30,353 nucleotides of DNA from a virus. The DNA is taken from positions 1 through 30,353 of the IMG/VR virus record IMGVR_UViG_3300027778_000008, one strand, 5' to 3'. Both the position numbers and the translations under genes were made by a program. Below the pieces are notes generated by a model. It did not search any database. It had not been told where the DNA came from and saw only the letters and a program-made list of their open reading frames with translations. Positions 2,783 to 17,997 of this stretch are shown piece after piece (the stretch's first letter is position 1; the number at the start of each line of letters is the position of its first letter).

Positions 2783-2869
2783 TTAACGGAGCTTACGACG
2801 ATAACCCCCACCTGTGCTGTAATTACGTTCTACAGCAATACGCGACGTATCGTAATCCAGCCCAGGCAT
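2783..2869 (-). CDS. Possible 28-aa basic peptide, translationally coupled
   Basis: The stop codon of the internal-head-type gene at 2869-3765 overlaps an ATG as TAATG, the arrangement typical of coupled re-initiation. From this ATG an open frame of 28 codons encodes MPGLDYDTSRIAVERNYSTG followed by GGYRRKLR and a TAA. The peptide is Gly/Arg/Tyr-rich with a basic C terminus. It fills most of an otherwise empty gap and is followed by the hairpin at 2755-2774. There is no separate strong ribosome binding site, and I recognise no family. A chance frame of this length is quite possible. The TAATG overlap, used by real gene pairs elsewhere in this window (7717 and 24441), is the main argument for it. 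Confidence 0.4.
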   Translation of the reverse strand: MPGLDYDTSRIAVERNYSTGGGYRRKLR

Positions 2870-3765
2870 TACGCCTTTTTTGCGAAATAGCTCGGAGTGA
2901 GTTTATCCACAACACCGGTCACGAATGAACGGAAAGACGATTTCATTTGCTGGATCAAGGTGTAAGACTTCATCACCTCTTTCAGAGAAGCCAACTTCTC
3001 TTTGATTTCAGCAGATGCATTTTCACCGGCAGCTTTAACCTTGCTTTCCAGCTTCTCGATTTCAGCCAGAGTTTTAGACGCCAGTGACTTGACCTGAGAC
3101 GACATCAGACCACGGAAGTCACGGAAGTACATCGCCCACAGTTGCGCCTTGATAGACACAGCCAGTGCAATACCGCGACCTTGTTTCTTGGCAACTTCAA
3201 CACCACGGTTGGTGATCTCTGCCATTTTCTCCAGTGCGCCGTCCAGCTTTTCTTTCAGCTGAAGATCTTCAGCCAGAATCTTGGCAGTCTGCACGCCCTG
3301 GTTAACTTTCGCTTTAATGCTTGCGCCGGCAGCAGCCGCTTTAGCAGCAGCAGCGTCGATAGCGCCACGGGCAGCCTGAGTCAGTTCAGAGGTAGAAGGC
3401 AGTTTAGCCAGGATACCTTTTTCTTTCTCAATCTCACCGTCTTTCTCTTCATCCTTCGTTTCAGCATCTTTACCGAAGAAGAAGCCCCACATGCCCTTGA
3501 AGACATTTTTGATGTAAGTGACAGACTTCGCAAAGCTGGCCTTTACAGAGTTCCACACGGATTCATTACCGTGGATAGCGCTAGGAGGCAGCATGTCTGC
3601 GCCACACATTGCACCCGCCAGGTATTTAACCGCATAGCTTTCGGTGCCTTCAATGGCATCGATGCTACCCTGAATAATCAGGGATTCGTGGCTCTCATCG
3701 AGGTCGGCTGGAGTTTCGTCGAGTACCAGGTCGATAACGTCGTCTTGCATGATCTTTTTTTCCAT
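2869..3765 (-). CDS. Internal-head-type pro-protein, Ala-rich helical, GNE cleavage site
   Basis: A 298-residue protein. Residues 1-65 form an acidic propeptide-like region, then G66-N67-E68 matches the (S/A/G)-x-E prohead protease site of phiKZ-related phages. It is followed by a hydrophobic helix, SVWNSVKASFAKSVTYIKNV, and an aromatic patch (MWGFFFG, 92-98). After a charged linker (101-117, DEEKDGEIEKEK) the rest is Ala/Lys-rich helix, probably coiled coil (130-290). The start is uncertain: the ATG at 3765 has no clear ribosome binding site but lies exactly 26 nt from an ATTTTATG element, while the ATG at 3750 has a GGAAA upstream. It is probably a capsid-internal protein. Confidence 0.85.
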   Translation of the reverse strand: MEKKIMQDDVIDLVLDETPADLDESHESLIIQGSIDAIEGTESYAVKYLAGAMCGADMLPPSAIHGNESVWNSVKASFAKSVTYIKNVFKGMWGFFFGKDAETKDEEKDGEIEKEKGILAKLPSTSELTQAARGAIDAAAAKAAAAGASIKAKVNQGVQTAKILAEDLQLKEKLDGALEKMAEITNRGVEVAKKQGRGIALAVSIKAQLWAMYFRDFRGLMSSQVKSLASKTLAEIEKLESKVKAAGENASAEIKEKLASLKEVMKSYTLIQQMKSSFRSFVTGVVDKLTPSYFAKKA

Positions 3766-3791
3766 GTGAAAGTTAATAGGTGGGGTATAAA

Positions 3792-3799
3792 CATAAAAT
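3792..3799 (-). promoter_or_regulatory. Late-type promoter element ATTTTATG
   Basis: The minus strand reads ATTTTATG then TTTATA, 26 nt before the ATG at 3765, the same spacing as at 493 and 22251. The element overlaps the stop codon (3799-3801) of the gene at 3799-4263, so promoter and upstream coding end are interleaved and no terminator separates them. Confidence 0.6.
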
Positions 3800-4263
3800 T
3801 AGCAAGACACCGAAAACGCACCTTTGAAGTACGGACAATCGGTAAATTCGACGTGTAACTGGTTATCGAGCTTGGATAATGTCACTTCTGAACTGGTTAC
3901 CATGGGCATGCCCAACACGCTCATCAGCGTATCAAAAGTGTCCAGCAGGTTGTCATTAACCAGGATGTCGTTCTGATCAGCGACCAACACTGAGTCATCT
4001 TCAAAGACCGTATCACCGAGTTCTTCCAACGTAACATCTTCCGTGATGCTGCCGTGCAGATAACTGATGTCGATCGGTAAGGTTGACAGGAAACTCAGGT
4101 CGATCTTGTCACCACGAATAAAGCGAGAGCGGCACGCGGTGTCCACCACCGCATAGTTGTCAGCAGTGAGGTTATGCAGCGTTGGCGCCACAAAGCTTTT
4201 CTCATTACTGGCTTTCAACACACAGCGAGCAAACTGCCCAGGAGTTACGCGGATAATTTTCAT
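3799..4263 (-). CDS. Unknown acidic protein, 154 aa
   Basis: A 154-residue protein starting MKIIRVTPGQFARCVLKASN. Its ATG overlaps the stop of the preceding gene as ATGA, and GGGGAAAG in the end of that gene serves as ribosome binding site. It is acidic in the middle (residues 75-110, rich in D/E and V/L) with no membrane segment, no G-x-E plus hydrophobic helix pattern, and no motif I recognise. The overlap shows it is co-translated with the internal-head-type protein at 4260-5333. A role as its partner is possible, but that is inference. Confidence 0.8.
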   Translation of the reverse strand: MKIIRVTPGQFARCVLKASNEKSFVAPTLHNLTADNYAVVDTACRSRFIRGDKIDLSFLSTLPIDISYLHGSITEDVTLEELGDTVFEDDSVLVADQNDILVNDNLLDTFDTLMSVLGMPMVTSSEVTLSKLDNQLHVEFTDCPYFKGAFSVSC

Positions 4264-5333
4264 TTAAACGCTTTCCCCATGATGTCGTGTGCCGCCGTGT
4301 CAGCCTGTTGGATAGCTGTCATGACGTGCTTGATAAAGGCAATGTAGTTGACCAAGCTACGGAATGATGCAGCCATTGCGTACGCCTCGCCCTTGCCCAT
4401 GCCCTGGAGATCTTTCTCTGTCTTGATCTTGACATTGAACAGTGTTCCTTCACTCTTGGAGATCTCAGCCAAACGCACCAGGTTGTTGGAGGTCTTTTCC
4501 AACTTATCCACTAATCCGTCGAACTTACCTTCAGATACAGTGAACACATCATCGGCTTTTACGTCGGTTTGTTTCAGGGGAGAGATAACAAAGAGAATTG
4601 CGCCATCCTTGTCTTTCGTTACAGTTGCCCACTGTGCGCCCACCACGCGGAACTCACTCCCGCCCAGCTTCCCACCTAAGTGTGTCGCTACTGCACCACC
4701 AAAACGCTCTATGTCCGCCATGGTGACCTTTTTATCTTGCACCTTGGCAAAGAGGTCTTTAGCAGCCGTAAAGGTCTTGATAGCACCATCAGTGCGGCTT
4801 ACCAGGTTATCCAGTTCTTTAGCCAGCCAGTCCAGGTTAGCAGGGAAAGACTTAAAGCGTTTGCTGTCGATTAATGCTTTGGCATTGGCGGGGTATTTCA
4901 ATTCGGTATCGTAATTGATCTCTCCGGCCTTTACCTTACCCTGTAGTTTGTTGAAGTCTGTCTTAGAACGTTTACCAAAACCAAAGAAGGTTTCCGCCAG
5001 CCATTTAAAGAAGTTACCAATCATGCTGAGGAAACGTTTGATCAATGACCATACCGTGCCGAAAAGTCCTTCGCTGCCGTTTACTTCTGTGGGAGCATTA
5101 GGGATGATAGAGGCAACACGCAGATACAGTTGTTCTGTGCCTGTGCGCTCTTCCTCGGGCTTCTTTTCGATCTCGTCGGCTTTGTCCTTGACCGCCTTGT
5201 TGTCACCGTCCAGGAAAGCATCTACTGCCTTCTTGTCGGTTTGATAGAGTAACTCCACCGTTGGCGTGTTCACATAACGTGTAATCGCTTGGCTTTGAGT
5301 ACCTTTATCAAAGTCTTTAAAAATAGAAGTCAT
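4260..5333 (-). CDS. Internal-head-type pro-protein with GSE site and aromatic hydrophobic helix
   Basis: A 357-residue protein starting MTSIFKDFDKGTQS. Residues 1-85 are charged and helical (several K/D/E runs) and would be the propeptide. G86-S87-E88 matches the (S/A/G)-x-E cut site, followed by GLFGTVWSLIKRFLSMIGNF and FKWLAETFFGFGKRSK (89-124). This is a strongly hydrophobic, aromatic and amphipathic segment ending in basic residues. The remainder is a soluble alpha/beta region with a helical C terminus. The same order of acidic propeptide, GxE, hydrophobic helix and basic end is seen in the neighbours at 2869-3765 and 5430-6677. Likely packaged in the capsid and possibly membrane-active after ejection (inference). 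Confidence 0.85.
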   Translation of the reverse strand: MTSIFKDFDKGTQSQAITRYVNTPTVELLYQTDKKAVDAFLDGDNKAVKDKADEIEKKPEEERTGTEQLYLRVASIIPNAPTEVNGSEGLFGTVWSLIKRFLSMIGNFFKWLAETFFGFGKRSKTDFNKLQGKVKAGEINYDTELKYPANAKALIDSKRFKSFPANLDWLAKELDNLVSRTDGAIKTFTAAKDLFAKVQDKKVTMADIERFGGAVATHLGGKLGGSEFRVVGAQWATVTKDKDGAILFVISPLKQTDVKADDVFTVSEGKFDGLVDKLEKTSNNLVRLAEISKSEGTLFNVKIKTEKDLQGMGKGEAYAMAASFRSLVNYIAFIKHVMTAIQQADTAAHDIMGKAFK

Positions 5334-5354
5334 AAATAAAAAACCTCGAAGTCA

Positions 5355-5384
5355 ATACTAACCCGGGTTGCCCCGGGTTAGTAT
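5355..5384. terminator. Strong 13-bp hairpin with T6 tail on the plus side
   Basis: A perfect 13-bp stem (ATACTAACCCGGG and its complement) has a 4-nt loop that reads GCAA on the minus strand. On the plus strand it is directly followed by CTTTTTTC, which makes a textbook intrinsic terminator, although the genes on both sides run on the minus strand. On the minus strand the T run comes only after an 11-nt gap (T6 next to the 5333 start). It may end minus transcripts and also block antisense ones. Confidence 0.65.
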
Positions 5385-5429
5385 CTTTTTTCAAAGCGCA
5401 GTCAATGGGACCTGCGCAGATGGCACAGC

Positions 5430-6677
5430 TTAGATGTGCGCAGCAACGCCGTCGATCAGAGCTTCCAGGACGTTAGACGCCAGAGAAGTCGCAGAACGAG
5501 TCAGCGCAGCAGAAGATGCAGCAACAGCTTTAACCAGCGCAACTTTGTCACCAGTTTCTTTGTCATCTTTGCTTGCAGAAGCATTGATGTAGCCGATCAG
5601 TTTGTCACGCTTAGCAGCAGCGAATTTCTGGTCGATTTTACCGCTTTCCAGTTTACCGATAGCATTGCTAACGATGTTCAGCTGAGATTTCAGAGCAGCA
5701 GCGCTGGTGACTTTCGGAGCTACTTCGCCAGAAGTCAGTTTGCTGAAGTTATCAGCTTTAACAGTCTTCATGCTCAGAGCGCGAGCCAGGGCGCCAGCTT
5801 TCTTCAGGTCAGACGCTTCGCCTTCGCCAGTGTGCAGAACAACGCGGATGCCAGCGATCTGTGCAACCAGTTGGCCTTTCTCTTCTTTGCTTGCGCCAGC
5901 GCCAGCAATTTTAGATTTCAGACCAGAAACCAGCGCTTTGTACGCGGTACCGAATTCAGCCAGGGTGATTTCACCGTCCAGCAGGTTGGCGTATGCGCCC
6001 AGTGGTGCAGACACTTCTGCCAGCTCAACAACTTTACCGTTCAGACCTTTGGCTTCGTAATCGATGTAGCCGTTCCAGCCGCCCAGTTTGACTTTCTCTT
6101 TCAGCTTCAGGCCGTCTTTGCTCAGATCAGCGTTCAGACCTTCGATGCGACGTTTCATGGCTTTGTTCTTGTTGAACAGGCCGATGAAGAAGTTCACAAC
6201 GGTGTTGAAGATCTTCTTGATGAAAGCGATAACAGCAGCACCAGCGCCTTTCACTTTATCCATGAAGCCTTCCATACCGTCACGCGCCAGAGAAGAAGCG
6301 GTAGAGACGTCGTACAGATCTTCTGCGCCCATACGCGGAGCAGCAGTTTCCGGAGCGCCGCCCAGACGTTTGTCGGTGATTTTGAACGCTTGGTTGTACA
6401 GAGAAGCGAACGCACGGCCGTCGAAGTTACCAGAAGCCAGCATTGACTCCATACCTTCAACCAGGTCCTGAACTTCTTCAGTCGCTTCCTGGATGTCACA
6501 AACCTGCTCAGAGACTTCTTCCAGAACTTCGCCCTGCTCCTGGATTTCGGCGTTGGCTTCAGCAACTTCAGCGCGAATTTCAGAAACGGTTTCTGCTACC
6601 TGATCCAGAGTACCCTGAGAACCTTCTTCGTTCAGGTCCAGATCTTCGGTACCCGCATACAGTGATGGATTAAACAT
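5430..6677 (-). CDS. Internal-head-type pro-protein with acidic coiled-coil propeptide, probably abundant
   Basis: A 415-residue protein starting MFNPSLYAGTEDLDL, with the strongest ribosome binding site in the window (AAGGAG, well spaced). Residues 20-80 are a very acidic E/V/A heptad-like coiled coil. Two G-x-E sites follow: G117-A118-E119 and G134-M135-E136. After the second comes a hydrophobic helix (GFMDKVKGAGAAVIAFIKKI and FNTVVNFFIGLFNKNKAMKR, 137-176) ending in basic residues. The rest is Ala/Lys-rich and helical. Codon use looks even more biased than its neighbours (GCA/GCT, CTG, AAA), which with the strong start suggests high expression. Known (S/A/G)-x-E processing in phiKZ-related phages supports an internal head or ejected protein. 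Confidence 0.88.
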   Translation of the reverse strand: MFNPSLYAGTEDLDLNEEGSQGTLDQVAETVSEIRAEVAEANAEIQEQGEVLEEVSEQVCDIQEATEEVQDLVEGMESMLASGNFDGRAFASLYNQAFKITDKRLGGAPETAAPRMGAEDLYDVSTASSLARDGMEGFMDKVKGAGAAVIAFIKKIFNTVVNFFIGLFNKNKAMKRRIEGLNADLSKDGLKLKEKVKLGGWNGYIDYEAKGLNGKVVELAEVSAPLGAYANLLDGEITLAEFGTAYKALVSGLKSKIAGAGASKEEKGQLVAQIAGIRVVLHTGEGEASDLKKAGALARALSMKTVKADNFSKLTSGEVAPKVTSAAALKSQLNIVSNAIGKLESGKIDQKFAAAKRDKLIGYINASASKDDKETGDKVALVKAVAASSAALTRSATSLASNVLEALIDGVAAHI

Positions 6678-6698
6678 GTGTAAAACTCCTTGGAGATT

Positions 6699-6732
6699 TT
6701 TTACTTAAGTAAAAGTTTATTTAATTAAATAA
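6699..6732. repeat. Two adjacent AT-rich palindromes
   Basis: Two perfect 16-bp palindromes lie almost end to end: TTTTACTTAAGTAAAA (6699-6714) and TTATTTAATTAAATAA (6717-6732). The second contains the stop codon of the gene at 6725-7717. They sit just upstream of the strong ribosome binding site of the gene at 5430-6677. They could be weak hairpins at a transcript end, a cleavage site in the message, or a protein-binding site. No ATTTTATG element is present here. Confidence 0.45.
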
Positions 6733-7717
6733 CTTTCGATAAGACACCTAAGACGTCTTGGATGTATTTATCGACGTAGCTCACCACGCGTGGAGTGAAA
6801 CCACTATAAAATGCTAATGCGTGAGCATTACCTTTTAAGATGGACTCGGCTTCAGAGATAATCTGAGAACCTACGTTAGTTGTTTCACTTAAACCTTTGC
6901 TAGCTTCTTCTACAACAGAAGACCAGCTTTTAACGAAATCAAGATAATCAGCATAAGATCCTTTAACCTGCAGATGCAGATCATTGAGCTTGGCAACTTT
7001 TGCCAGGACCGACTGAAGATCAGACTTGGATGCTTCGAGGGTATGAGATTCACCAGCTGGCTTGTCTCCAGACATAGAATAGACTACATCATTGTCCTTG
7101 AACTTACACTTGATGACCTTGCCACCCGGTAAGACCTCTGAAACCGTCCACTCGCCGTTCTTGTGAGGAAGTTTGTATTCGGGATAATGAAGTCCCTCGA
7201 ACTCACGCACAACGTTCATGACATCGTTGGTGGTCTTGACACTCTTTAACTTGCGAGCTACCACCAATTCACGACTCAAATGATCTTTAACGTCATGCGC
7301 GTGTTTCTGGAACCCTTCCAGCGTTTTGATCAACTCATCCAGATCAGAACCGAAATCGCTCCACTGCCCCGTACTGGTCAATGCACCGACCAATGGACCC
7401 GAGAAAGTAAAGGCGTGGTTTTCATCATCTTTCATAGCATTAGGAATCTTGCCAATCAGAGACTTGTTGCTGTCAAAGGTTTTGGTGAGCTGTGCTCCCG
7501 CAGTTTTAATGCCTTTGTCCAGCAGATCCAGAGTATGACCACCTGCCCACTTCGCCACTGACAGCGCACCTGCCCCCAGTGACTTCATGGATTCCGCGAA
7601 ATCTTCATTACCCGCACGGTTATTTAACTTGACCACCGCCTGGAGCGTAGACATTGAGTCTAGCAAGTCGACATGATGAACACGGCAATCAACGTACAAC
7701 TCTCTAAGCTCAGACAT
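6725..7717 (-). CDS. Internal-head-type protein with short propeptide (GNE site)
   Basis: A 330-residue protein starting MSELRELYVDCRVHHVDLLD. G36-N37-E38, inside NRAGNEDFAESM, matches the (S/A/G)-x-E site and would release a short 38-residue propeptide. The following segment (FAESMKSLGAGALSVAKWAG, 40-59) is amphipathic but less hydrophobic than in the siblings. The middle (residues 160-230) contains beta-type sequence. The C-terminal part is helical. Its ATG overlaps the stop of the gene at 7717-9033 as TAATG, so the two are translationally coupled, and a GGTGAG lies just upstream. Membership of the processed set is less certain than for the proteins at 2869, 4260, 5430 and 16480. Confidence 0.82.
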   Translation of the reverse strand: MSELRELYVDCRVHHVDLLDSMSTLQAVVKLNNRAGNEDFAESMKSLGAGALSVAKWAGGHTLDLLDKGIKTAGAQLTKTFDSNKSLIGKIPNAMKDDENHAFTFSGPLVGALTSTGQWSDFGSDLDELIKTLEGFQKHAHDVKDHLSRELVVARKLKSVKTTNDVMNVVREFEGLHYPEYKLPHKNGEWTVSEVLPGGKVIKCKFKDNDVVYSMSGDKPAGESHTLEASKSDLQSVLAKVAKLNDLHLQVKGSYADYLDFVKSWSSVVEEASKGLSETTNVGSQIISEAESILKGNAHALAFYSGFTPRVVSYVDKYIQDVLGVLSKVI

Positions 7718-9033
7718 TAGCTCACCGATTTGGCAAAGTTAATAGAGTCATTGCACAGGCTGGCAATGGCGTTCAGGGTGATCACCAGGTAACGCGTAAA
7801 GTCCGCATTGAGATCCAACAGGTCTTGCTGGTTCTTGCGCACAATCATGGAGTACATGGCCATTACACGATGCTTGTTCGATTCATTGATCGGCATCTTG
7901 GTCAGGTTGCTTCCCACGATCTCGTAGTCACGCTCAGAGATACGGTGCTTGATCGCCTTGTTACAGATCTTCAGCCAGTTCTCCAGAATCTGGATAGAGA
8001 TCTGACAGATGTGGCGAATGGTGGCAGCACCAAAGGTATTGATCAGCTGTTCCTGGTCGATGAAGTTAGCTGACTCGCGCTTATTGAAACGCACACCCAG
8101 ATCCTGCACGCGAGAATCAAACCAGTCATCAATGGTTTTCACATCTTTGACTTTGATTGGATCCTTCCAGCGCGTATCAATCAGGTAGCGACCACCCATA
8201 AGCTCCACAGAACGCAACTGGCGGAGCCAAGGCACATTCTTATCTGAGATATCGATCTTACACTCACGGAACGCAGGAACATTCAGCAGAGGTCCAACCT
8301 GCATCAGGATCTGTGTGGCTTCCTCGTCAGAGCTTACGCCTTCAAAGCGAGAGAAGAACGCCATGATCTGCGTCAGCTCTTTTTCTGAATAGTCGTAGTA
8401 GTTGTTGGTCAGCGCAGAAGTGGTCTTGAACAGATTAGTAATCTGATTCTGCCAGTCTTCCTTTACCTGTCCCTGAACCTTTAACAGGTTAAACAGACGC
8501 GCACTGAGGTTGAACTGCTCCAGACCGTCTTTGAAGTCACCCATGTCTTTCAGCGCACGATCAATCATCTTGAAGCGGGTGATCAGAGACTCGGTATCCT
8601 CAACAGCCAGCGTATACGCGTCGTGGAAGTTCTGTCCCAGGCGTTTGGTAAACACCTTGGCGGTTTCCAGGGTATCGCTCAGGAAGCTCTCACAGGCCGC
8701 GATACGCGTCAGACGATAGTCCTTGGGGCGAATGGTACGACCAAAGCTTTCAGCGCCCGCTACACGGTGTGCGTTGTACGTAATGTGCCCGTCGTCGATC
8801 TCTACTACTTTGAGTTCGCTGAGTTCGCCATCAATCGTAATCGCATCTTCCGGAGAGATCTGGTGATCCTCGGTATTTTCCAGCAGGGTCTTGATCTCTT
8901 GTACGCGGTTACTGGAACTCAACACTTGGTTAGTGATGTTGTTCAGGTCACGGCTGTCTTTCACCGTTTCCATCAGTTCCAGGGATTTCACCACAGAGAT
9001 CGCCGCCATTTGCTCATCAAGCTCAGTTGTCAT
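7717..9033 (-). CDS. Large helical virion-type protein with GAE/ACE candidate cleavage sites
   Basis: A 438-residue protein starting MTTELDEQMAAISV, with GGAGAAA upstream and an 11-nt overlap with the gene at 9023-9544. Residues 1-90 are acidic and propeptide-like. G93-A94-E95 (VAGAESF) and A113-C114-E115 (AACESF) both match the (S/A/G)-x-E site. The repeated ...ESF after each site is notable. The rest is predominantly helical and well mixed, without the strong hydrophobic helix of the smaller siblings. I see no enzymatic motif. By position in the operon and the cleavage-type motif it is likely an internal head or inner structural protein, but the family is not recognised. Confidence 0.82.
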   Translation of the reverse strand: MTTELDEQMAAISVVKSLELMETVKDSRDLNNITNQVLSSSNRVQEIKTLLENTEDHQISPEDAITIDGELSELKVVEIDDGHITYNAHRVAGAESFGRTIRPKDYRLTRIAACESFLSDTLETAKVFTKRLGQNFHDAYTLAVEDTESLITRFKMIDRALKDMGDFKDGLEQFNLSARLFNLLKVQGQVKEDWQNQITNLFKTTSALTNNYYDYSEKELTQIMAFFSRFEGVSSDEEATQILMQVGPLLNVPAFRECKIDISDKNVPWLRQLRSVELMGGRYLIDTRWKDPIKVKDVKTIDDWFDSRVQDLGVRFNKRESANFIDQEQLINTFGAATIRHICQISIQILENWLKICNKAIKHRISERDYEIVGSNLTKMPINESNKHRVMAMYSMIVRKNQQDLLDLNADFTRYLVITLNAIASLCNDSINFAKSVS

Positions 9034-9544
9034 AACGGGTTTCTCCCAGCAGGGCCAGCAGGATGCGTGCCATGTTTTCCATGCCTACGCCGCGCAGCAA
9101 GCGGTAATAATCAAAGTTAGAGATGTTGTCAGTCAACGCCATGGAGTAGCGAGCTGAACTCTGGGTGCTGGTAATGAAACGACGATCCCAGGCGCCAGAG
9201 GTGTTGTTGTTGTGGTGGACGATCTCTTCAGCACAACGAATGTCGCTCATGATTGCACGAGCAGAACACTTGTCATTCAAATAGAGAACGATGGTGTTCA
9301 CAATCGAAGCCAACGGACCGATACCGTTTTTGTAGTTCGCTTCCAAGAAGTCCTGGAAGTTTTCACCGATCAAGCAACGCGCTGCACGCAGCACTTCCTG
9401 ATAGATGATGGGATTGGTTTTCTGGGCGTAGTCTTGGGTTGTGCTGTTTAAGAACGCACGAACCACTTCCTTGGCAGCCATAATGTCTGCGTTGGTGACC
9501 GCTCCATTAACAAACCCATTTTTAGCGCGTACAAACGTACTCAT
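9023..9544 (-). CDS. Unknown protein, 173 aa
   Basis: A 173-residue protein starting MSTFVRAKNGFVNGAVTNAD. A TGAGG lies upstream, and an ATTTTATG element at 9587-9594 lies 42 nt before the start, so it is the first gene of the unit running down to about 5430. It is mostly helical, with two His/Asn stretches (HHNNNTSG near 110-117) and no membrane segment. I recognise no family. The overlap of 11 nt with the next gene indicates co-translation with the 438-residue protein. Confidence 0.82.
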   Translation of the reverse strand: MSTFVRAKNGFVNGAVTNADIMAAKEVVRAFLNSTTQDYAQKTNPIIYQEVLRAARCLIGENFQDFLEANYKNGIGPLASIVNTIVLYLNDKCSARAIMSDIRCAEEIVHHNNNTSGAWDRRFITSTQSSARYSMALTDNISNFDYYRLLRGVGMENMARILLALLGETRYDN

Positions 9545-9586
9545 AGGGCAATAACCTCAGTAAGAAGGAGGGATGTCGAAAATCAT

Positions 9587-9594
9587 CATAAAAT
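9587..9594 (-). promoter_or_regulatory. Late-type promoter element ATTTTATG
   Basis: The minus strand reads TGATTTTATGATGATTTT, 42 nt before the start of the gene at 9023-9544. It begins 4 nt after the end of the hairpin at 9599-9626, so the T4 run of the promoter element also follows the hairpin. Confidence 0.58.
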
Positions 9595-9598
9595 CATT

Positions 9599-9626
9599 AT
9601 TACTGAGGGTGTGACCCCTCAGTAAT
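9599..9626 (-). terminator. Intergenic hairpin, 11-bp perfect stem
   Basis: ATTACTGAGGG pairs perfectly with CCCTCAGTAAT around a 6-nt loop. It lies just after the stop of the gene at 9637-10530 and just before the ATTTTATG at 9587. The loop (TGTGAC on plus) is nearly that of the hairpin at 509-532 (TGTTAC), with the same GGG/CCC closing. Confidence 0.6.
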
Positions 9627-9636
9627 AGATGAACGG

Positions 9637-10530
9637 TTACTGATAACTTTCAACGATCTTGTTAATCGTGCCGGAGTTCTTCACGATCTTCTCGCGGTAA
9701 ACTTCGATACGGTGATCCAGGGAAGCATCATTACTGCCGTTTTTCTGGTTGATTGCCTGGTTGATCTTCATCCCCAGGTATTCGTTCTGCTCTTGGGCAT
9801 TGCGGATACGGTGGAGGTCGATCTCACGCATCAGGCTGTCGTACCAGTATTTCGGGTTCAGATAATGAATACCGAAACCGCGTGCCATCTCTGGCTTCTT
9901 ACCGCCCAACCCCTGCATGATCTCCATGCTTGACTGATCGTCTGCATCGATTTCAGGGATCGCGTCGATCTCTTTCATCAGCACAGTCTTGCCTTTCAGC
10001 AGAGAAGCAGTGATGTTGCTGAAGTACAGCGAGGAGCCGTTCAGGAACATCAGTTCGTTCTTGGTCAGATACTTATCCAGAACGAAGCCGGTTTCTGAAG
10101 ACATGCTCAGCAAAACGTCCAGCAGCTTGGTGGCATAACGGGTCCAGAAGTCCAGCTGTTCAACGGTAGACAGCAGATAGACCTGGCGCACAGTCATGGT
10201 TTCGCCTGACCACAGCTCTTCCTTATAACCCGCTACTTGTTTCTTCAGGTAGTCGGTAAGGTGAGTGATCACTTCGGCAACAGTTTTCACGATAGACAGC
10301 GTAGGCGTGCCTGCGTTGAACTGTGGAACCGTTTTGGCTACGTTGCCAGAGATAGACTTGGTAACCGCCCAAGCGCCGCTCTCATTGCTTAACGTAAGGC
10401 CTGCGCTCTCCAGACGGTTAGCATGATCGATGAGATCGTGTGCAGTCACGTCGATGGTAGAGATCAGCGTTAAGATGTTCTTGCGGCTGACGTTTTTTAC
10501 GCTGGAGGCGTATGCGCTAATATCAGACAT
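9637..10530 (-). CDS. Unknown virion-type helical protein, 297 aa
   Basis: A 297-residue protein starting MSDISAYASSVKNVSRKNIL. The start is only 2 nt after the stop of the gene at 10533-11666, with AGGGAA in that gene's end as ribosome binding site, so the pair is one operon. It is mostly helical and soluble. The C-terminal 90 residues contain a charged, Asn/Gln-rich segment ending at IVESYQ. I see no convincing G-x-E plus hydrophobic helix pattern and no enzyme motif. The operon ends in the hairpin at 9599-9626. A structural role is inferred from location only. Confidence 0.82.
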   Translation of the reverse strand: MSDISAYASSVKNVSRKNILTLISTIDVTAHDLIDHANRLESAGLTLSNESGAWAVTKSISGNVAKTVPQFNAGTPTLSIVKTVAEVITHLTDYLKKQVAGYKEELWSGETMTVRQVYLLSTVEQLDFWTRYATKLLDVLLSMSSETGFVLDKYLTKNELMFLNGSSLYFSNITASLLKGKTVLMKEIDAIPEIDADDQSSMEIMQGLGGKKPEMARGFGIHYLNPKYWYDSLMREIDLHRIRNAQEQNEYLGMKINQAINQKNGSNDASLDHRIEVYREKIVKNSGTINKIVESYQ

Positions 10531-10532
10531 AA

Positions 10533-11666
10533 TTATTTCCCTGCCAGAATACGGGCCAGTGCTTCCAGAGAATCGGCGCCATCAGCTTTCTTGGCTTTGG
10601 TTTCGAGTTCTTTCAGCGTGAAGGTTTCAACCAGGCTGTCGCCATTGGTGAGGAATTCAAACACACCGTTACGCTCATCGCAGATAACGATGCGAGAAGC
10701 ATCCACAGCACGGAAGATGGCATCCAGGTTACGACCGTTGGAGAAACGTTTACCGATAGTCAGTTCGATCTGCTTGGCAGTGTCGGAACTCATGATAAAG
10801 GTGTTCGCCATGGTGTTCATGGATACAACGCCGGTACGGATTGCCTGCGCCTTGTTGATGCGCTCGCGTTTCGCCATCTCTTCAAAGTAACCGGTGGTAT
10901 CTTTGTTCTTGATGTTGAACTTCTCTTTGTTGACATCGCTACCAGAGAAGAACTGCGGACCAGTGATCTCGCCAGCCTGCCACATGTTCAGACGAGCAAA
11001 GAAACCGTCTTCAGATTTCGCCGCCTGGAACACGTTCAGCAGTTGTGCTGGGTTCATTGGCATCGGGATCTCACGGAAGGTCAGAGGAAGCTCTACCTTT
11101 CCGCCATTTGGGCCATGTGCCGTGGCGACGACAACGCGTCCAATTGCGAGTGGAGTGTACTCTGTGATGTCTGAATAAGACTTGCCACCAATAGTAACAG
11201 TATCGCTGCTATTGCCCACTTCGGTTCCTTCGGAGCCATCGTTGCCACCTTTATTAAACTTACCAGGTGCAGGTCCGTTGCCGTTCATTGCTTCACAGCC
11301 AGCCAGAGAAACTAAACCTGCACGACGCGGTTGAACACCACCGATGATCTCATCGATTTTGATGCCCATGCGTTCTGCGTTCTTGATAGAAATGTGTGCC
11401 AGGACAGCGTGCATGTCGCGCGCCATAACAACTTGCATCACAGCTTGCATGTAGCTAGCGTGTACAATCGTCTTGTCCACACCTACAATCGGTGCTACTA
11501 AAGTGCGATTGCCGCTTTGCACAACACTGTGCTTGGTCAGCAAATTGTATGTATTGCCGGCCTTATCCGCTACGTTGGAAGCTGCGGCAACTTCTCCATT
11601 CTCAGGAAAAATCATTTTTGCTGTGTCAAGCAGCAATCGACTAACGCCGATAATAGACCCTATCAT
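10533..11666 (-). CDS. Virion-type protein with internal Gly/Asn-rich linker, 377 aa
   Basis: A 377-residue protein starting MIGSIIGVSRLLLDTAKMIF, with AAGAGGT upstream. The N-terminal 20 residues form a hydrophobic helix, short of a clear membrane span. Residues 40-115 are a compact alpha/beta part. Residues 128-155 are a low-complexity Gly/Asn/Ser linker containing GSE and, just before it, a GCE (LAGCEAMNG), both of which fit the (S/A/G)-x-E protease pattern. The C-terminal 220 residues form a second alpha/beta domain and a Lys/Glu/Ala helix. Unlike the siblings, no hydrophobic helix follows the sites, so cleavage here is only possible. The family is unknown to me. Confidence 0.82.
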   Translation of the reverse strand: MIGSIIGVSRLLLDTAKMIFPENGEVAAASNVADKAGNTYNLLTKHSVVQSGNRTLVAPIVGVDKTIVHASYMQAVMQVVMARDMHAVLAHISIKNAERMGIKIDEIIGGVQPRRAGLVSLAGCEAMNGNGPAPGKFNKGGNDGSEGTEVGNSSDTVTIGGKSYSDITEYTPLAIGRVVVATAHGPNGGKVELPLTFREIPMPMNPAQLLNVFQAAKSEDGFFARLNMWQAGEITGPQFFSGSDVNKEKFNIKNKDTTGYFEEMAKRERINKAQAIRTGVVSMNTMANTFIMSSDTAKQIELTIGKRFSNGRNLDAIFRAVDASRIVICDERNGVFEFLTNGDSLVETFTLKELETKAKKADGADSLEALARILAGK

Positions 11667-11688
11667 ACTAACCTCTTATGGCTAAATT

Positions 11689-12804
11689 ATGAGTGAAAAA
11701 TTTGATATAAACGATCTGGCCGGGTTATTGAAAACACCGGGTCTAGCTCGTCCCGAAATTTTAAAACAAAATGTAGAACAGTCGAAAACGCAATCCGCAA
11801 TTCCGCCAGACCAAATAACGTCAATGCTGGATTATGCTTTTTCGGAACAAGGTGGACCTGGAGTACAGAGTCCGGTAATTAAATCATTGTCCGGCCTGAG
11901 AATCATTGGTCCAGGACACCAATTCATCCCCATAGCCGACGATGCCATAGGATTGCCTTTTGTATCGCGCCCCCTTTTAAACCTCTCAGATGAGAACGTC
12001 TCACGATACCCTGGCTTATTCCCGTTCTATCGGAGCCGTCCCAATAGCGTAATGAGCTATGTGCGAGGGTTGCTTGATAAACAATGGGGAGCCGCAAATA
12101 GCGGAGCTGTCTCTTTCCTGGATCCTCTCACTGCCTGGATGACACCTCTGACGAACTACTGTAAAACCAGCAACGGCTTTCCAGATCTCTCGCTAAATGT
12201 CTCCACCAGTTCACCGGGTTTCCGTCAAGAAGTGTATCGTTGGATCAGTGGGATCTTGCAGCACAATGGCGCTTATCCCATGCGTCAAAGCTTCCACATG
12301 TCCCAACCTAAGTTCCTTCCTTATATCTTTGAAACCTGGCTGAACTATATAAATGAAGTGACGTTGGGTGACCACGGGTTGGAGCCGTACCCTGAGGCAT
12401 TAAAGCAAAGCTACCAGGATTACGACTGTCGCATCTACCACATTATCCTGAACCGCAACATGCGGAACATTGAGTGGATCTTCTGTAACGCCAGCTGTGT
12501 GCCGACGACGTATCCGTCAGGGGCCTTCTCAGCAATTGACCGCACGACTAACTCTCTGCGCGGTCAAGGCCAAGATGAATTCGACATCAACTTTGATGCG
12601 ATCGCTTTCCGTTATGGTAACGTTACTGTGGCGCGCATGTTTAATGCCACCACGGAATACTTTAATAATGACATGCGTGATGAGATCCGTAATACCAAAT
12701 ACCGCATGCTGGAATTCGATCAGTATTATGGCAATAACAATGAGCGTGTCTATCCGTATATCAATCTGGATAAGATGACGCTGGAATATTGGGTGAAACG
12801 ATGA
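11689..12804 (+). CDS. Unknown tail/structural-type protein, 371 aa
   Basis: A 371-residue protein starting MSEKFDINDLAGLLKTPGLA. It begins only 22 nt from the start of the divergent gene at 10533-11666, and no convincing ribosome binding site is seen upstream. The first 50 residues are likely flexible. The rest is aromatic-rich (many W, Y and F), with segments such as RPLLNLSDENVSRYPGLFPF and VPTTYPSGAFSAIDRTTNSL, which look like a rigid virion component. It overlaps the next gene by ATGA. Coupling to the large protein that may be a baseplate or tail component suggests this is a neck, tail or baseplate protein too. That is inference, and I cannot name the family. Confidence 0.85.
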   Translation: MSEKFDINDLAGLLKTPGLARPEILKQNVEQSKTQSAIPPDQITSMLDYAFSEQGGPGVQSPVIKSLSGLRIIGPGHQFIPIADDAIGLPFVSRPLLNLSDENVSRYPGLFPFYRSRPNSVMSYVRGLLDKQWGAANSGAVSFLDPLTAWMTPLTNYCKTSNGFPDLSLNVSTSSPGFRQEVYRWISGILQHNGAYPMRQSFHMSQPKFLPYIFETWLNYINEVTLGDHGLEPYPEALKQSYQDYDCRIYHIILNRNMRNIEWIFCNASCVPTTYPSGAFSAIDRTTNSLRGQGQDEFDINFDAIAFRYGNVTVARMFNATTEYFNNDMRDEIRNTKYRMLEFDQYYGNNNERVYPYINLDKMTLEYWVKR

Positions 12805-15719
12805 GCATTGAAATAACACCAACCACCAAGTTGGCTGCTAACCCGATTCGTGGTTTGAACTACGTCGTGGACAGTCTTCAAAAAGCCTGGTTCGATCAAA
12901 AGGTCAACATCAACTCAGGTACACATCCCGTGGTGTTCTGTGCTGACTTAACCATCGGGGTGGGATTTGGTTTCCTGAGTTCGCTGAGTGATGCGATCAG
13001 TCAAGTATTCCCGGCACACGCAACCTCGATTGCTGACCTGTCGCGTAACATGAATGACATCGAGTATTACGGTTTGTTTGGTACACCTGCCGCTAGCCGT
13101 ATGAACTTGATCATCTCCATGGATAACCTCAAGGCCTTTGCCCCTACCGCTACCAGTACGGTTAATGGGGTGAACCTGAGTTATCAGAAACTGTTGATCC
13201 CGAAAGACACCGAAGTGGATGTGGCAGGTTATACCTTTGCGATCGAAAACGGCATCGAGATCCGTTACAACGAACGCACCGGCGTGCAGGTGGTATATGA
13301 CTCAACCACCAATAACCCGTTCAATGCCATCACCAGTAACGTGTTGAAGCGTAAAGTCCGCACGATCAATAGCAAAGAGTATCTGGTTATTGAAGTTCCG
13401 GTTCGTCAGCTTGCTTGTAGCTTTGATGCCAGTATTCCGTCGACCACAGCAGCGGGTTGTTCGGGTACACGCGCGTACTCTGATTACCTGTACGGCATCC
13501 GTGCCTACATCACGCAGTCTGACGGTGTGAAGCGTGAGATCCAGGTAGCGTACGACAAGGCGGTGTTTGATCCTGGCTCAGTGACGATGACCATTGACCT
13601 GGACACCTCTAACAGTGCTTTCTCCTTTGCCATTCCCGACATCTATATTGAGAACGGTTTAGGCGTAGGGACGGTGTCGCTGTACGTTTATACCACTAAA
13701 GGTACCGTGGACAAGGACTTCACCGGTAACGAGTTGTCTGACTACATCCCGGCTTATCGTGACTACCGCTACAACAACAACGAGCTGAACCAGTATTCTG
13801 ACTTCCTGACGAATATGGGTGGTGTGTTGTGGAAGTTTGACACGCCTATCTCTGGCGGTACTATTCCAACCTCGTTCAGTAAGATCAAATACGGTGTGGT
13901 GAACGGTCGTCGTCTGCGTAGCTTGCCTATCACGGAAAACAACCTGATCGGCTCTGTTGAAGATTACGGTTACTCGGCGGTGAAGAGCATCGACTTTGTT
14001 ACGTCTCGCTTGTTCTCCTTAACCAAAGAACTGCCGCTGCAAACCAACAAAGACTTCTATTCTGGAGTCAACTGTTTTGTGGGGACTAACCTGATCTCAG
14101 CCCGGGGCTTGGTGAACACAGGTGTTGCCATTGATAACGGTGCGCGTGTTACGGTGCCGGCGGGCACCATGTTTGACGTGACTTCGCAGGTCCCTCAGAT
14201 TGTGACTGCTGCACAACGTCGTGATATTGCGGCGATGACCAATAACGCGTTAATCGCCTATATGGAAAGCACCAGTCTGGCTTACCTGCCGTTCCACTAC
14301 GTGTTTGATACTACCCAGAACCAAGCAGCTATCCGCATGTACTATCTGGATAAGCCGAAGTTTGGGATTCAAAGCTTCCAGGAAGAGAACACCAACTTGG
14401 GAATTGAAACCGGTATCGATGCGGTGACGGTAGAGTATGAGAACAACGGTTACACCATCATGGCGCAAACCAGTTCTGGTCAGAGCTATAAGCTGTTGAC
14501 AGATGAACAGGTCGGCATGCAGTTAAGCGTTATGGTGTCAGGCAGTAATGAGCCGGCTAACCTGCGCGGCGAACTCGCCTACAAAACCAAAGAAGGTGAG
14601 CGTGTCTATCGCTTCCGTCTGGAAAGTAACCTGGACGTGGATGAAGGCGATCAGCTCCACATCACTAACTTCAGTCAGTATGGCAAAGTTCAACCCGATA
14701 CCCCAATTGCACTGGACCTTGATGTTTCCTTTATTATCCTGCGCCGTGTAGGTACGTGGCAAACAGTGATCAGTTCAGACAGCATGATCGATCACTCACT
14801 GTTCCCGGATCCAATGCAAGCTATCATCATGACCGATGTCGAGTTAACACTGGGCAAGCGTCTGGATCGTCTGTACAACCGTATTCGTCCTCTGGTAGGA
14901 GAAGGTCAGTATCAGCAGTATGACTTCAACGTCCCGGATGTGTATGAAGACAACGTGTACGAAGAGAAAGACGGACAGATGGTGTTGGGTCCCGATAACC
15001 TGCCTATCCTGAAGCATGCTAAAGGTGAAGCCATGCTCACTGATGCGGGCGGTCCAATCTATAAACACCGCAAGGGAGATTGGGTCAAGGATGCGCAAGG
15101 TAACTACGTGCAGTTGGCGCCACGTGAACTCAACTACCATTGGGACTTCGTGGGCTTTGACGGCGTCTATCAGCTGAGTAAAGATCAGTATGACTTGACG
15201 TTTGCACAAACGGTAAAAGACATGTTGGCGGATACCATCAGTCTTGACCTGGACCTGTTCAGTCAGCAGATCATTGACAAGACCCGTTTACTCTATCAGC
15301 CGAAGAGCAAGCTGGGTTGGCGTAAAGTGGTAGTGAACTCTAACTACTACTCTGTGCTGCGTCAGGACCTGTCGTTTGAGGTTACCTACTACCTGACTCG
15401 CTCTGGCTATCAGAACACTAACCTGAAAGCCTCACTGAAGAACAACACGCCGAAAGTACTGAATACCTTCTTGTTTGGTAACATTACCGTGGGTGTGTCT
15501 TCTCTGGTGAAGGCGTTGATGGAAAACTTGCCGTCTGATGTCGTGGATGTCAAGATCAATGCGGTAAGCGGTGACAGCACTGTGGATGTAATCTCAGCCG
15601 TGGATGAACTCAGTGGGTTCAGTGTCCGCAAGAAACTGGTGTTGGGTGATAACAAATTGCCAAGCGTCCAGGAAGATGTCAAGGTCGACTTCTTACAACA
15701 CGATGTAACCAGCCTATAA
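12801..15719 (+). CDS. Large structural protein, possible baseplate wedge/tail component, 972 aa
   Basis: The start is the ATG at 12801 (MSIEITPTTKLAANPIRG), which overlaps the stop of the previous gene as ATGA and has GGTGA a few bases upstream. An in-frame TTG at 12789 is inside the earlier gene and less likely. The protein is beta-rich throughout and has no membrane segment. About residues 95-205 contain alternating short beta strands (LLIPKDTEVDVAGYTFAIEN, EYLVIEVPVRQLACSF) in a style seen in gp6/gpJ-type baseplate proteins of contractile tails. The remainder carries several DNNxxP/YR-rich loops. The length suits a major baseplate or tail protein of a giant myovirus. The assignment is by style, not by a diagnostic motif. 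Confidence 0.85.
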   Translation: MSIEITPTTKLAANPIRGLNYVVDSLQKAWFDQKVNINSGTHPVVFCADLTIGVGFGFLSSLSDAISQVFPAHATSIADLSRNMNDIEYYGLFGTPAASRMNLIISMDNLKAFAPTATSTVNGVNLSYQKLLIPKDTEVDVAGYTFAIENGIEIRYNERTGVQVVYDSTTNNPFNAITSNVLKRKVRTINSKEYLVIEVPVRQLACSFDASIPSTTAAGCSGTRAYSDYLYGIRAYITQSDGVKREIQVAYDKAVFDPGSVTMTIDLDTSNSAFSFAIPDIYIENGLGVGTVSLYVYTTKGTVDKDFTGNELSDYIPAYRDYRYNNNELNQYSDFLTNMGGVLWKFDTPISGGTIPTSFSKIKYGVVNGRRLRSLPITENNLIGSVEDYGYSAVKSIDFVTSRLFSLTKELPLQTNKDFYSGVNCFVGTNLISARGLVNTGVAIDNGARVTVPAGTMFDVTSQVPQIVTAAQRRDIAAMTNNALIAYMESTSLAYLPFHYVFDTTQNQAAIRMYYLDKPKFGIQSFQEENTNLGIETGIDAVTVEYENNGYTIMAQTSSGQSYKLLTDEQVGMQLSVMVSGSNEPANLRGELAYKTKEGERVYRFRLESNLDVDEGDQLHITNFSQYGKVQPDTPIALDLDVSFIILRRVGTWQTVISSDSMIDHSLFPDPMQAIIMTDVELTLGKRLDRLYNRIRPLVGEGQYQQYDFNVPDVYEDNVYEEKDGQMVLGPDNLPILKHAKGEAMLTDAGGPIYKHRKGDWVKDAQGNYVQLAPRELNYHWDFVGFDGVYQLSKDQYDLTFAQTVKDMLADTISLDLDLFSQQIIDKTRLLYQPKSKLGWRKVVVNSNYYSVLRQDLSFEVTYYLTRSGYQNTNLKASLKNNTPKVLNTFLFGNITVGVSSLVKALMENLPSDVVDVKINAVSGDSTVDVISAVDELSGFSVRKKLVLGDNKLPSVQEDVKVDFLQHDVTSL

Positions 15720-15722
15720 CAG

Positions 15723-15754
15723 TAAACTACTACGCCCTAGGGCGTAGTAGTTTA
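15723..15754. terminator. 32-bp perfect palindrome between convergent genes
   Basis: A fully symmetric palindrome centred on CCCTAGGG, with arms reading TAAACTACTACG outward, occupies nearly the whole gap between the plus-strand gene ending at 15719 and the minus-strand gene ending at 15759. TTTATTTATT follows on the plus side. It can terminate transcription from both directions. Confidence 0.75.
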
Positions 15755-15758
15755 TTTA

Positions 15759-16466
15759 TTAAAAGTCATCTAACAGTTCGTTGAATACACGAATCAGGTA
15801 CAAACGCTGTTGCAGGTGAACTTTGAGATCCCGAAGGTCCTCTTTGTTTCCTACCCACGCCATGCGATCAACCAGACGCGGTAAACCACTGTACGCGTTG
15901 TTCACGGTGAGGCAGTACTCTTTTGCCACATTCGTGATCACTTCACTGATACCCGAGAACTCACCGCTGGGTCCGTAGTAACGGCTGGCCTGCTCGTCGT
16001 CTAATACAATGAAGTTCTGCTTGTTGACAAACTTGATGCGGTTGCAGTCGTAGTCGCGGAAACCACACACAAATCCCGCTACGATACTTTTCAAGTAACC
16101 ATAACGAGTAGGTGGAACACGGCCCGGGTTCTGCAGCATCTCAAACACACGGTCAGCAGTTTGGGATAATGCGTCGTAGAATTCCTGACACACTTCTTCC
16201 CCAACTGCACGCATGCCGCCGAAACGCACACCGAAACGCACCACGATGTTCAGGATAGTCCAACGCAGGTCACTGCTGTCAATGGCATACGTTCGTGTGG
16301 TAAGACGTTCTTTGATCTGTGTACGCAGCGGGTCCTGAATCGTGCTCACTAACTGCATGGCTTCTTCAAAACTCAATTCTGCGGGCAGTTCAAAACCCAG
16401 GGTACGGGTCAGGGTGTTTTCGAGGTCATCCGTTAACGTCTGGATATTTTCGAGGTTGACAATCAT
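15759..16466 (-). CDS. Unknown protein, 235 aa
   Basis: I chose the ATG at 16466 (MIVNLENIQTLTDDLENTLT). An AAGGA site overlapping the stop of the previous gene lies 10 nt upstream. An in-frame ATG at 16505 would add 13 residues inside that gene and lacks a site. The 235-residue protein is helical and soluble, with a central VRFGVRFGGMRAVGEEVCQE segment and a Cys-containing GFVCGFRDYDCNRIKF stretch. It is the last gene of the operon that starts with the metalloprotease at 19756 and ends at the palindrome 15723-15754. I recognise no family. A structural or assembly role is guessed from context only. Confidence 0.82.
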   Translation of the reverse strand: MIVNLENIQTLTDDLENTLTRTLGFELPAELSFEEAMQLVSTIQDPLRTQIKERLTTRTYAIDSSDLRWTILNIVVRFGVRFGGMRAVGEEVCQEFYDALSQTADRVFEMLQNPGRVPPTRYGYLKSIVAGFVCGFRDYDCNRIKFVNKQNFIVLDDEQASRYYGPSGEFSGISEVITNVAKEYCLTVNNAYSGLPRLVDRMAWVGNKEDLRDLKVHLQQRLYLIRVFNELLDDF

Positions 16467-16479
16467 GGTGAGCGCGTCC

Positions 16480-17997
16480 TTACAAGAGCTTGCCCAGGCC
16501 CGCATCTTTACCGAAGTTGTTTACCGCGGTACGGATGTTAAGCAGGTTGTTTTCGATAACCAGGTCGGAGATATCAGCAGCTTTCTCCATCACGGTCTGT
16601 GCTTCGGCTTCAGTTACTGCTACCAGCTTTGGTACGCCGTTCGGGTACATGTCCACGGTAAATGGACGACCTTCACGCATAGCACGCTGCTGTGCTTCCA
16701 GCATCATCTTGCCCACGGTCTGAACGTCGTTAGCTACCGCTGCCAGCATAAACGCATTGGCTTTGGCATACCAGTTGCCCAGGTCACTGAAGGTGGTACC
16801 GGCAAGGCGCAGGATTTCCACAGTGACCTTTGAGAAGTTGGTATAGACGTTAACCGCACCTGCCATCTGCTGATAGAAGCCAAGGTAGCGACCATCACCA
16901 GTGAGATTGCTCAGCATGGTAATCTGGGACAGTTCATCAGCACTGGTGAAGTTAAACAGTTCACGCATCGTTTCATGCATGTCTTTCTTCTGACCAGCCA
17001 GGTGTTCAAAGTTCTCGATAGTGGTCTTAGCGAGAATCTGATCGACCTTCTTCAGGAACGGAACATCAGCAGCCTGCTGTGCAGTTGTGATCGATGCCGT
17101 GATCTGTTGCGCAATCTCAATAGAACGTTTGGCAAAGTCATCTTCACTGTAGGTCTGCTGCATCACCACGCCCAGCAGCTTAGACAAGCCCGGAGTAATC
17201 TCGCTGTAGTTCAGTGCACGGATCACTTCCATCATGTCTTCGCGCAGAACGCCGCCCTGATAATCGAAGTCAAAGCCCGGCTCTTTGCTCTTGCGAACAA
17301 TGAACTGCAGGTTTTCAGAGAAGCGCTTCTTGGCCAGCTTGGCTTTCTTGGTGCCTTTGGCGATAGCCGCACACACACCCTGAATCAGACCTGGAATCTG
17401 CGTGAAATTTTCCAGGTAGTGTTCTTTGCTCACCAGTTTGGTGCTCATGAACTTCAGAGATTTGTTGTAGCGACCATCGGGCATGTCTTCCAGGAACTTT
17501 TCAAGATCCACCAGATGTGCAGGGAAGCCCATGGCCAGGAGATAGGCGCCGATCTGTTGCTTGATCTCCGGCATCTTCTCTTTCACCGCGGCAGCTTGAC
17601 GGTCACTTGGCTTCAGACCAAACAGAATCTGAATCTTATCAACGACCCACAGGGCGATCTTCTTGATAAAACGAATCACGGCCAGGATGCCATTTTCCAG
17701 CGCCTTCATGGTGGTTTGGAAGAAACCTTCACCGCCAAAGCGAGTGTTGTAAGCCGAACCCAGTGGATCCATCTTGGTTGAGCGAGTCGCAACACCCATG
17801 TACAGGGCAGTGGTTGCATCCAGCTTACCTGTGCTAACAAAGCTCTCTACACCCGACACGATCTTGTGGACCTTTAACTGCTTGTCGTAGTCAATGATCT
17901 CGGTCATGTCAATGCTGGCTTCATCAACCTCATCAAAGCGGATGGTGTCAATGGGGTCCGACTTTCCCAGACCCTCAACGGTAACCGTATTATTCAT
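16480..17997 (-). CDS. Internal-head-type pro-protein with GGE site and hydrophobic helix
   Basis: A 505-residue protein starting MNNTVTVEGLGKSDPIDTIR, with AAGAGGTG upstream and an 8-nt overlap with the gene at 17990-18394. Residues 1-87 are acidic and propeptide-like. G88-G89-E90 matches the (S/A/G)-x-E prohead protease site and is followed by GFFQTTMKALENGILAVIRF and IKKIALWVVDKIQILFGLKP (91-130), very like the equivalent segment of the protein at 5430-6677 (GFM... AVIAFIKKI...). The mature remainder (about 375 residues) is helical and basic in places. Although separated from the other siblings by about 7 kb, it clearly shares their architecture. Likely an internal head or ejected protein. 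Confidence 0.87.
   Translation of the reverse strand: MNNTVTVEGLGKSDPIDTIRFDEVDEASIDMTEIIDYDKQLKVHKIVSGVESFVSTGKLDATTALYMGVATRSTKMDPLGSAYNTRFGGEGFFQTTMKALENGILAVIRFIKKIALWVVDKIQILFGLKPSDRQAAAVKEKMPEIKQQIGAYLLAMGFPAHLVDLEKFLEDMPDGRYNKSLKFMSTKLVSKEHYLENFTQIPGLIQGVCAAIAKGTKKAKLAKKRFSENLQFIVRKSKEPGFDFDYQGGVLREDMMEVIRALNYSEITPGLSKLLGVVMQQTYSEDDFAKRSIEIAQQITASITTAQQAADVPFLKKVDQILAKTTIENFEHLAGQKKDMHETMRELFNFTSADELSQITMLSNLTGDGRYLGFYQQMAGAVNVYTNFSKVTVEILRLAGTTFSDLGNWYAKANAFMLAAVANDVQTVGKMMLEAQQRAMREGRPFTVDMYPNGVPKLVAVTEAEAQTVMEKAADISDLVIENNLLNIRTAVNNFGKDAGLGKLL

Follow-up and report, generated by a model that had tools for sequence, protein, structure and literature searches.

Ejection proteins that carry a removable propeptide and are processed by a prohead protease are known in principle. 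In SPN3US, mass spectrometry (MS) placed the cut of gp53 at AQE-125↓GWKETLKDLFER and that of gp54 at ARE-137↓SLWDDIK (PMC10052503). phiKZ gp86 is cut at SQE-122 and its 201phi2-1 counterpart gp148 at SQE-113; for SPN3US gp47 a cut at ALE-111 is expected, directly before a transmembrane (TM) helix predicted by TMHMM, and the authors speculated that this helix contacts the host membrane (PMC5694885). Here we analysed a 30,353-base stretch of viral DNA, the entire IMG/VR record IMGVR_UViG_3300027778_000008 (the window), in which a first-pass annotation had pointed out seven virion-type proteins with a G-x-E cut site. At least nine products of its gene cluster would be prohead protease substrates. 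Five of them (named, like all window proteins below, by their first coordinate: 1277, 2869, 4260, 5430 and 16480) have in common a module of ~80 residues, which consists of an acidic propeptide, the site G-x-E↓G/S and a basic amphipathic helix of ~36 residues.

A nucleotide search of phage records with the window gave no match. Its proteins were matched to Erwinia phage RisingSun, Pseudomonas phage EL and Klebsiella phage Miami, and its gene order parallels both RisingSun gp56-gp75 and the SPN3US gp45-gp54 region; the phiKZ counterpart, gp84-gp97, includes most inner-body genes (PMC13282480). The window is an inner-body and ejection-protein gene cluster of a nucleus-forming jumbo phage of the EL/RisingSun type. 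Besides the named phages, the comparison drew on near relatives from IMG/VR (80-92% identity) and on a 231-kb relative (G004, about 56%).

Conserved G-x-E sites and protease specificity

All seven motifs lie at the residues that the annotation had given (Table 1), although 1277 falls outside the range of 2869-17997 that it had quoted, and two further substrates, 10533 and 18404, had been overlooked. As composition predicts 1-3 G-x-E motifs per protein, their presence alone is uninformative. Each of the seven sites, however, retains G-x-E in 5/5 relatives, even in EL and RisingSun, where identity is 22-47%, and the middle residue varies. Across the nine predicted substrates, 16 of the 19 G-x-E motifs in propeptides were fully conserved, compared with 0/8 in mature parts and 2/7 in other proteins (Fisher p = 7e-5). 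Five propeptides hold additional conserved inner sites (Table 1), which would be consistent with a propeptide that is cut into pieces; SPN3US gp53 is likewise a multi-site substrate (ARE-12, AQE-95 and AQE-125; PMC10052503). The region ahead of the cut had been described as acidic, and this holds for most of the proteins (net charge -5 to -24) with the exception of 6725 (-2 over 38 residues).

Sites in other head proteins follow the same rule. The position in the major capsid protein (MCP) that is homologous to SPN3US ATE-130 reads GNE, GAE or GLE in RisingSun, EL and three metagenomic relatives (SPN3US site numbering from PMC10052503). In the same five phages, the portal sites are GNE/GSE and GIE/GLE, and the protease itself has TAGLE (TAGCE in one relative) near residue 206, near the SPN3US autocut at AQE-203. 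P3 is G at both MCP and internal-protein sites in FishSpeaker, Miami, pTD1 and AerS_266 and A at both in SPN3US (ATE in the MCP, AQE in internal proteins); the MCP sites of Kosakonia phage Kc263 and Edwardsiella phage pEt-SU are GLE and GME. As MCP, portal, protease and internal sites all have G at P3, G-x-E appears to be a clade-wide specificity that the substrates follow, and comparison of the sequences suggests that the prohead protease of the EL/RisingSun clade cuts at G-x-E↓(G/S). The predicted substrates fit this specificity, with conserved sites that have glutamate at P1 and a small residue at P3.

Homology connects these proteins to ones with experimentally determined cuts. The PF12699 profile takes in 5430, 6725 and 7717 together with SPN3US gp53/gp54 and phiKZ gp93/94/95; 5430 matches it at 7e-33 (114.7 bits; gathering cut-off, 27 bits) and is 44% identical to RisingSun gp68, which ranks second by detection among the proteins of RisingSun lysate (PMC6034870). 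A profile built from 5430 and its relatives (A7) matches phiKZ gp93 at E 1e-8; in this alignment GME136 falls on SLE-156 and the helices stay in register beyond it. Using hhalign, 16480 joins phiKZ gp86 over the cut-and-helix stretch only, with GGE90 on SQE-122 (weak, E 0.0027), and the 5430 alignment showed no similarity to SPN3US gp53. Profile methods were needed, as direct BLASTP found no match of 5430 to phiKZ gp95 or of 7717 to phiKZ gp92. Pfam gave no PF12699 match for 1277, 2869, 4260 and 16480 and no match of 16480 to PF25617 (PhiKZ_gp86); RisingSun gp59, a relative of 16480, matches PF12699 below threshold (23.2 bits) across site and helix. The earlier proposal that the prohead protease cuts after G-x-E is thus strongly supported by site conservation, by the corresponding sites that the clade has in MCP, portal and protease and by the proven SPN3US and phiKZ cuts, and from these sequence comparisons such cleavage in this phage appears very probable.

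A shared N-terminal module and possible roles of its helix

The module is shared by proteins that otherwise differ. When 81-residue pieces round the cut were compared among fourteen proteins, 49 pairs matched at E<0.01, compared with 3 pairs, all orthologues, for the C-terminal bodies; module similarity reached E 1e-28 between proteins with no detectable body similarity. A profile of the helix only, with the site removed, found 22 non-seed matches at E<=3e-3, many of them orthologous to one another, and G-x-E directly preceded the helix in 22/22, compared with 2.7% at random positions. In an alignment of 14 modules that included other genera, G-x-E was invariant and the helix was kept. In the 231-kb relative, conservation of the helix (64-81%) also exceeded that of the body (35-58%) in each of the five families.

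By tblastn, the module was found in 31 phage records, comprising phages of Erwinia, Pseudomonas, Klebsiella, Raoultella, Stenotrophomonas, Kosakonia, Edwardsiella and Aeromonas, at up to 7 places per genome. RisingSun has nine module genes, among them gp5/71/72/189, whose modules are homologous to that of 2869. MS of RisingSun lysate detected 31 of 243 gene products, including 7/9 module proteins (PMC6034870; hypergeometric p = 9e-6), indicating that the module marks virion proteins; gp73, the orthologue of 1277, was seen in the same study. Weaker copies occur in RisingSun gp137 (L004:34732-35646; GNE↓SLIVGS...) and in a metagenomic relative (L055:2815-3666; GME↓GLFSSA...), so that the counts per genome are minimum values. 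The helix profile of the clade had no significant match among the phiKZ and SPN3US helices (best E 0.12), which indicates that the module sequence is clade-specific and its architecture wider. In the window, no module helix was found in 6725 (by helix profile) or 7717.

On balance, we favour an explanation in which the shared module is a packaging-and-processing tag on inner-body cargo and the helix docks after the cut. The module would carry different cargo proteins into the prohead core, in the manner of a T4 capsid-targeting sequence but longer. The protease would then shred the acidic propeptide, the fragments would exit the head, and the exposed helix would remain on the mature protein as a docking element common to the cargo proteins, which it would fasten to the inner capsid vertex, to the inner body or to one another. 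T4 offers an analogy, as does the SPN3US gp47 truncation, which is packaged, and on these grounds the module is probably a packaging signal. Docking of the helix to capsid, inner body or partners is a proposition that we consider evenly balanced. phiKZ gp93 and gp86 are chains of the solved capsid model 8Y6V, and Pfam labels gp86 (PF25617) as vertex-binding; the presence of both proteins within the capsid model favours internal docking. The study behind 8Y6V reportedly describes the inner minor proteins as a network under the shell. According to a review, phiKZ has roughly ten minor capsid proteins, most of them bound on the inside.

Several points weigh against this explanation. Site conservation, homology to proteins with experimentally determined cuts, module sharing and helix amphipathy are observed; cleavage here is drawn from homology to SPN3US and phiKZ (PMC10052503, PMC5694885), the targeting role rests on the two analogies above, and docking, above all, is what we infer. 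For 16480 the link to SPN3US gp47 is positional only, as hhalign found no similarity between the 16480 alignment and gp47. The positional orthologues 4260 and RisingSun gp69 also lack detectable C-terminal similarity in the same test, so some bodies that appear unrelated may be merely diverged. From 8Y6V, the chain list was used. AlphaFold models of 5430 and 16480, from five-sequence alignments, had a mean predicted local distance difference test score (pLDDT) of 46 and 45 and predicted the helix with no usable packing. As Foldseek with the first model gave chance matches only, structure was not used as evidence.

We also considered whether the protease needs the helix for recognition and rejected this, as MCP, portal and protease lack the helix and are cut nevertheless.

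The main alternative places the helix at a membrane. The annotation had described a hydrophobic helix right after the cut in five proteins. In four it is indeed hydrophobic or strongly amphipathic, whereas the 1277 helix is homologous but not hydrophobic, with an interface energy at the 72nd percentile of background; an amphipathic, basic and aromatic helix at the new N terminus is supported. Under the alternative, this helix would work at membranes in the manner of a fusion peptide: the acidic propeptide would hide it, maturation would expose it, and after ejection it would act in delivery or early vesicle formation. Module helices had a higher hydrophobic moment than background (median 0.61 versus 0.37, p = 2e-15) and, on average, a lower and thus more favourable bilayer interface energy (p = 2e-7): the helices of 2869, 4260 and 5430 fall in the best 4% of background for interface energy, and that of 4260 is in the top 1% for interface energy and hydrophobic moment. 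The predicted TM helix of SPN3US gp47 described above also agrees with a membrane role, and with that speculation part of the idea was already in print for one protein. Furthermore, phiKZ gp93/94/95/163 are injected (PMC10449902), and the inner membrane is the source of early phage infection (EPI) vesicles, in which injected virion proteins are found (PMC12908238, PMC13282480). However, the helices of the 1277 family, SPN3US gp53 and phiKZ gp93-95 are membrane-unfavourable (70th-93rd percentile), D or K is usual among the first seven residues past the cut, and gp93 and gp86 belong to the capsid model. The proposed membrane activity after maturation is permitted by the scores for 2869, 4260, 5430 and 16480, where the helix could act at the membrane in addition to docking, but not as a general function, because the SPN3US gp53 and phiKZ gp93-95 helices are too charged. 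Overall, we consider the alternative possible but unlikely. Membrane action is likelier for 16480 and 5430 than as a general function. A broader version, in which the helix is a general ejection or membrane tag and maturation arms varied head proteins that build or line the genome-shielding early infection vesicle, seems quite unlikely. Packaging, docking and membrane roles are not mutually exclusive.

A charge switch is improbable. Here, the acidic propeptide would keep a basic mature protein off the DNA until it is cut before packaging, and the basic helix would then contact the genome round the inner body. Propeptide net charges of -2 to -25, mostly basic module-bearing mature parts (+2 to +15) and an inner body thought to spool DNA (PMC13282480) agree with this, but mature 1277 and 6725 and the RisingSun and EL relatives of 16480 are neutral or acidic, and the conserved hydrophobic face of the helix would be superfluous for DNA binding. 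We are just as doubtful that the helix is merely the first helix of each cargo fold, retained by paralogous ancestry with no separate function: PF12699 does cover site, helix and body, and some PHROG profiles run beyond the module, yet highly similar modules precede dissimilar bodies and the helix outconserves the body in all five families of the 231-kb relative. Finally, G-x-E is common, but the conservation and helix-profile tests refute chance motif matches, to which we assign next to no probability.

Predicted substrates and neighbouring genes

Table 1. Predicted prohead protease substrates in the window. Residue numbers are followed by window positions in brackets; the arrow marks the predicted cut; 5/5, conserved in all five relatives.
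Gene	Strand	Product	Propeptide	Conserved inner sites	Predicted cut	Module helix	Pfam PF12699
1277..2683	-	module protein, long propeptide	1-263 (1895-2683)	GLE226, 5/5	GNE263↓G, 5/5	264-299 (1787-1894)	
2869..3765	-	module protein	1-68 (3562-3765)	GTE42, 5/5	GNE68↓S, 5/5	69-104 (3454-3561)	
4260..5333	-	module protein	1-88 (5070-5333)	67	GSE88↓G, 5/5	89-124 (4962-5069)	
5430..6677	-	internal head protein, PF12699 phiKZ_IP	1-136 (6270-6677)	11, 77, 119	GME136↓G, 5/5	137-172 (6162-6269)	see text
6725..7717	-	PF12699-related internal protein			GNE38, 5/5		1.9e-7, 31.1 bits, above cut-off
7717..9033	-	PF12699 internal protein			GAE95, 5/5, and/or ACE115		3.6e-23, 82.8 bits, above cut-off
10533..11666	-	extra substrate, phiKZ gp89 / SPN3US gp50 homologue			GCE125, 5/5		
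16480..17997	-	module protein at phiKZ gp86 / SPN3US gp47 position	1-90 (17728-17997)	GVE51	GGE90↓G, 5/5	91-126 (17620-17727)	
18404..19756	-	extra substrate, SPN3US gp45 / phiKZ gp84 homologue; carries HExGH...ExxAD			GLE16, 5/5		

The second site of 7717 (8689-8749), which may be the final cut, varies naturally between A and G at P3, with ACE in close relatives and GCE in RisingSun and EL. 10533 matches phiKZ gp89 (BLASTP 5e-22) and SPN3US gp50 (4e-7), the latter a cleaved protein (PMC10052503), and 18404 matches SPN3US gp45 (BLASTP 3e-7; cut ASE-20).

In the 18404 family (SPN3US gp45, phiKZ gp84, RisingSun gp57), E16, HE-GH and E--AD are invariant in 5 phages. E--AD lies ~95 residues past HE-GH and is followed by a strongly hydrophobic stretch, and the family profile aligns both motifs with Ste24p (E 0.0055). 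The product may be a head-packaged, M48-like membrane metallopeptidase, and an uncharacterised zincin-like peptidase mentioned in one jumbo-phage group (PMC7824862) may be the same family.

Elsewhere in the window, two adjoining related genes on the minus strand, 27456-28841 and 28923-29804, both resemble the RisingSun HNH endonuclease gp80 (31%), and the former has an I-HmuI-like NUMOD match below threshold (PF22083). Next to these homing-endonuclease-like genes ends an open frame on the plus strand, 26094-27392, which by eye resembles an RNA polymerase subunit, had no Pfam match and is possibly interrupted.

Comparison with known systems

In the literature searched, we found no description of a large module common to many proteins that leaves each of them with the same helix and is cut with G-x-E specificity; subscription literature lay mostly outside the search, and an earlier description is possible. 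The module turns hypothetical proteins into a defined class, as it predicts a packaged, protease-processed head protein (nine in RisingSun). The G-x-E↓G/S rule predicts how an entire clade of jumbo-phage proteases should cleave and gives the exact N termini expected of mature proteins, in RisingSun for example those after the predicted cuts gp68 GME131↓GFMDK, gp72 GNE87↓GVLST and MCP GNE101↓GFSLQ. As a candidate packaging signal, the module might be used to load foreign proteins into the heads of jumbo phages. In addition, it names a candidate helix for two questions, how the inner body coheres and by which virion proteins the early infection vesicle is made.

The PF12699 proteins of phiKZ-like phages (phiKZ gp93/94/95/162/163, SPN3US gp53/gp54) have the same order as 5430, that is, a long acidic propeptide, an x-E cut and an amphipathic helix. 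P3, however, is G throughout the EL/RisingSun clade, A in SPN3US and S/A/G in phiKZ, and the EL/RisingSun helix is more hydrophobic. At the gene position of 16480, phiKZ gp86, 201phi2-1 gp148 (both PF25617) and SPN3US gp47 have a cut, proven in gp86 and gp148 and expected in gp47, that leads straight into an amphipathic or TM helix. 16480 itself has no Pfam match; it resembles gp86 weakly and in the cut-and-helix stretch only, and no similarity to gp47 was detected. Viral fusion peptides resemble the module in having a protease-made N terminus with a G/F/L-rich amphipathic helix. This is a resemblance only; here charged residues lie near the new N terminus and the setting is the interior of a phage head. 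The T4 capsid-targeting sequence of IPI-III and Alt is likewise an N-terminal propeptide that the prohead protease cuts after glutamate on several unrelated internal proteins. Whereas that sequence has 10-20 residues and nothing known to be shared past the cut, ~45 residues before the cut and ~36 after it are shared here. As in T4, the same removable N-terminal signal is found on different internal proteins, the bodies of the 14 tested proteins being dissimilar between non-orthologues.

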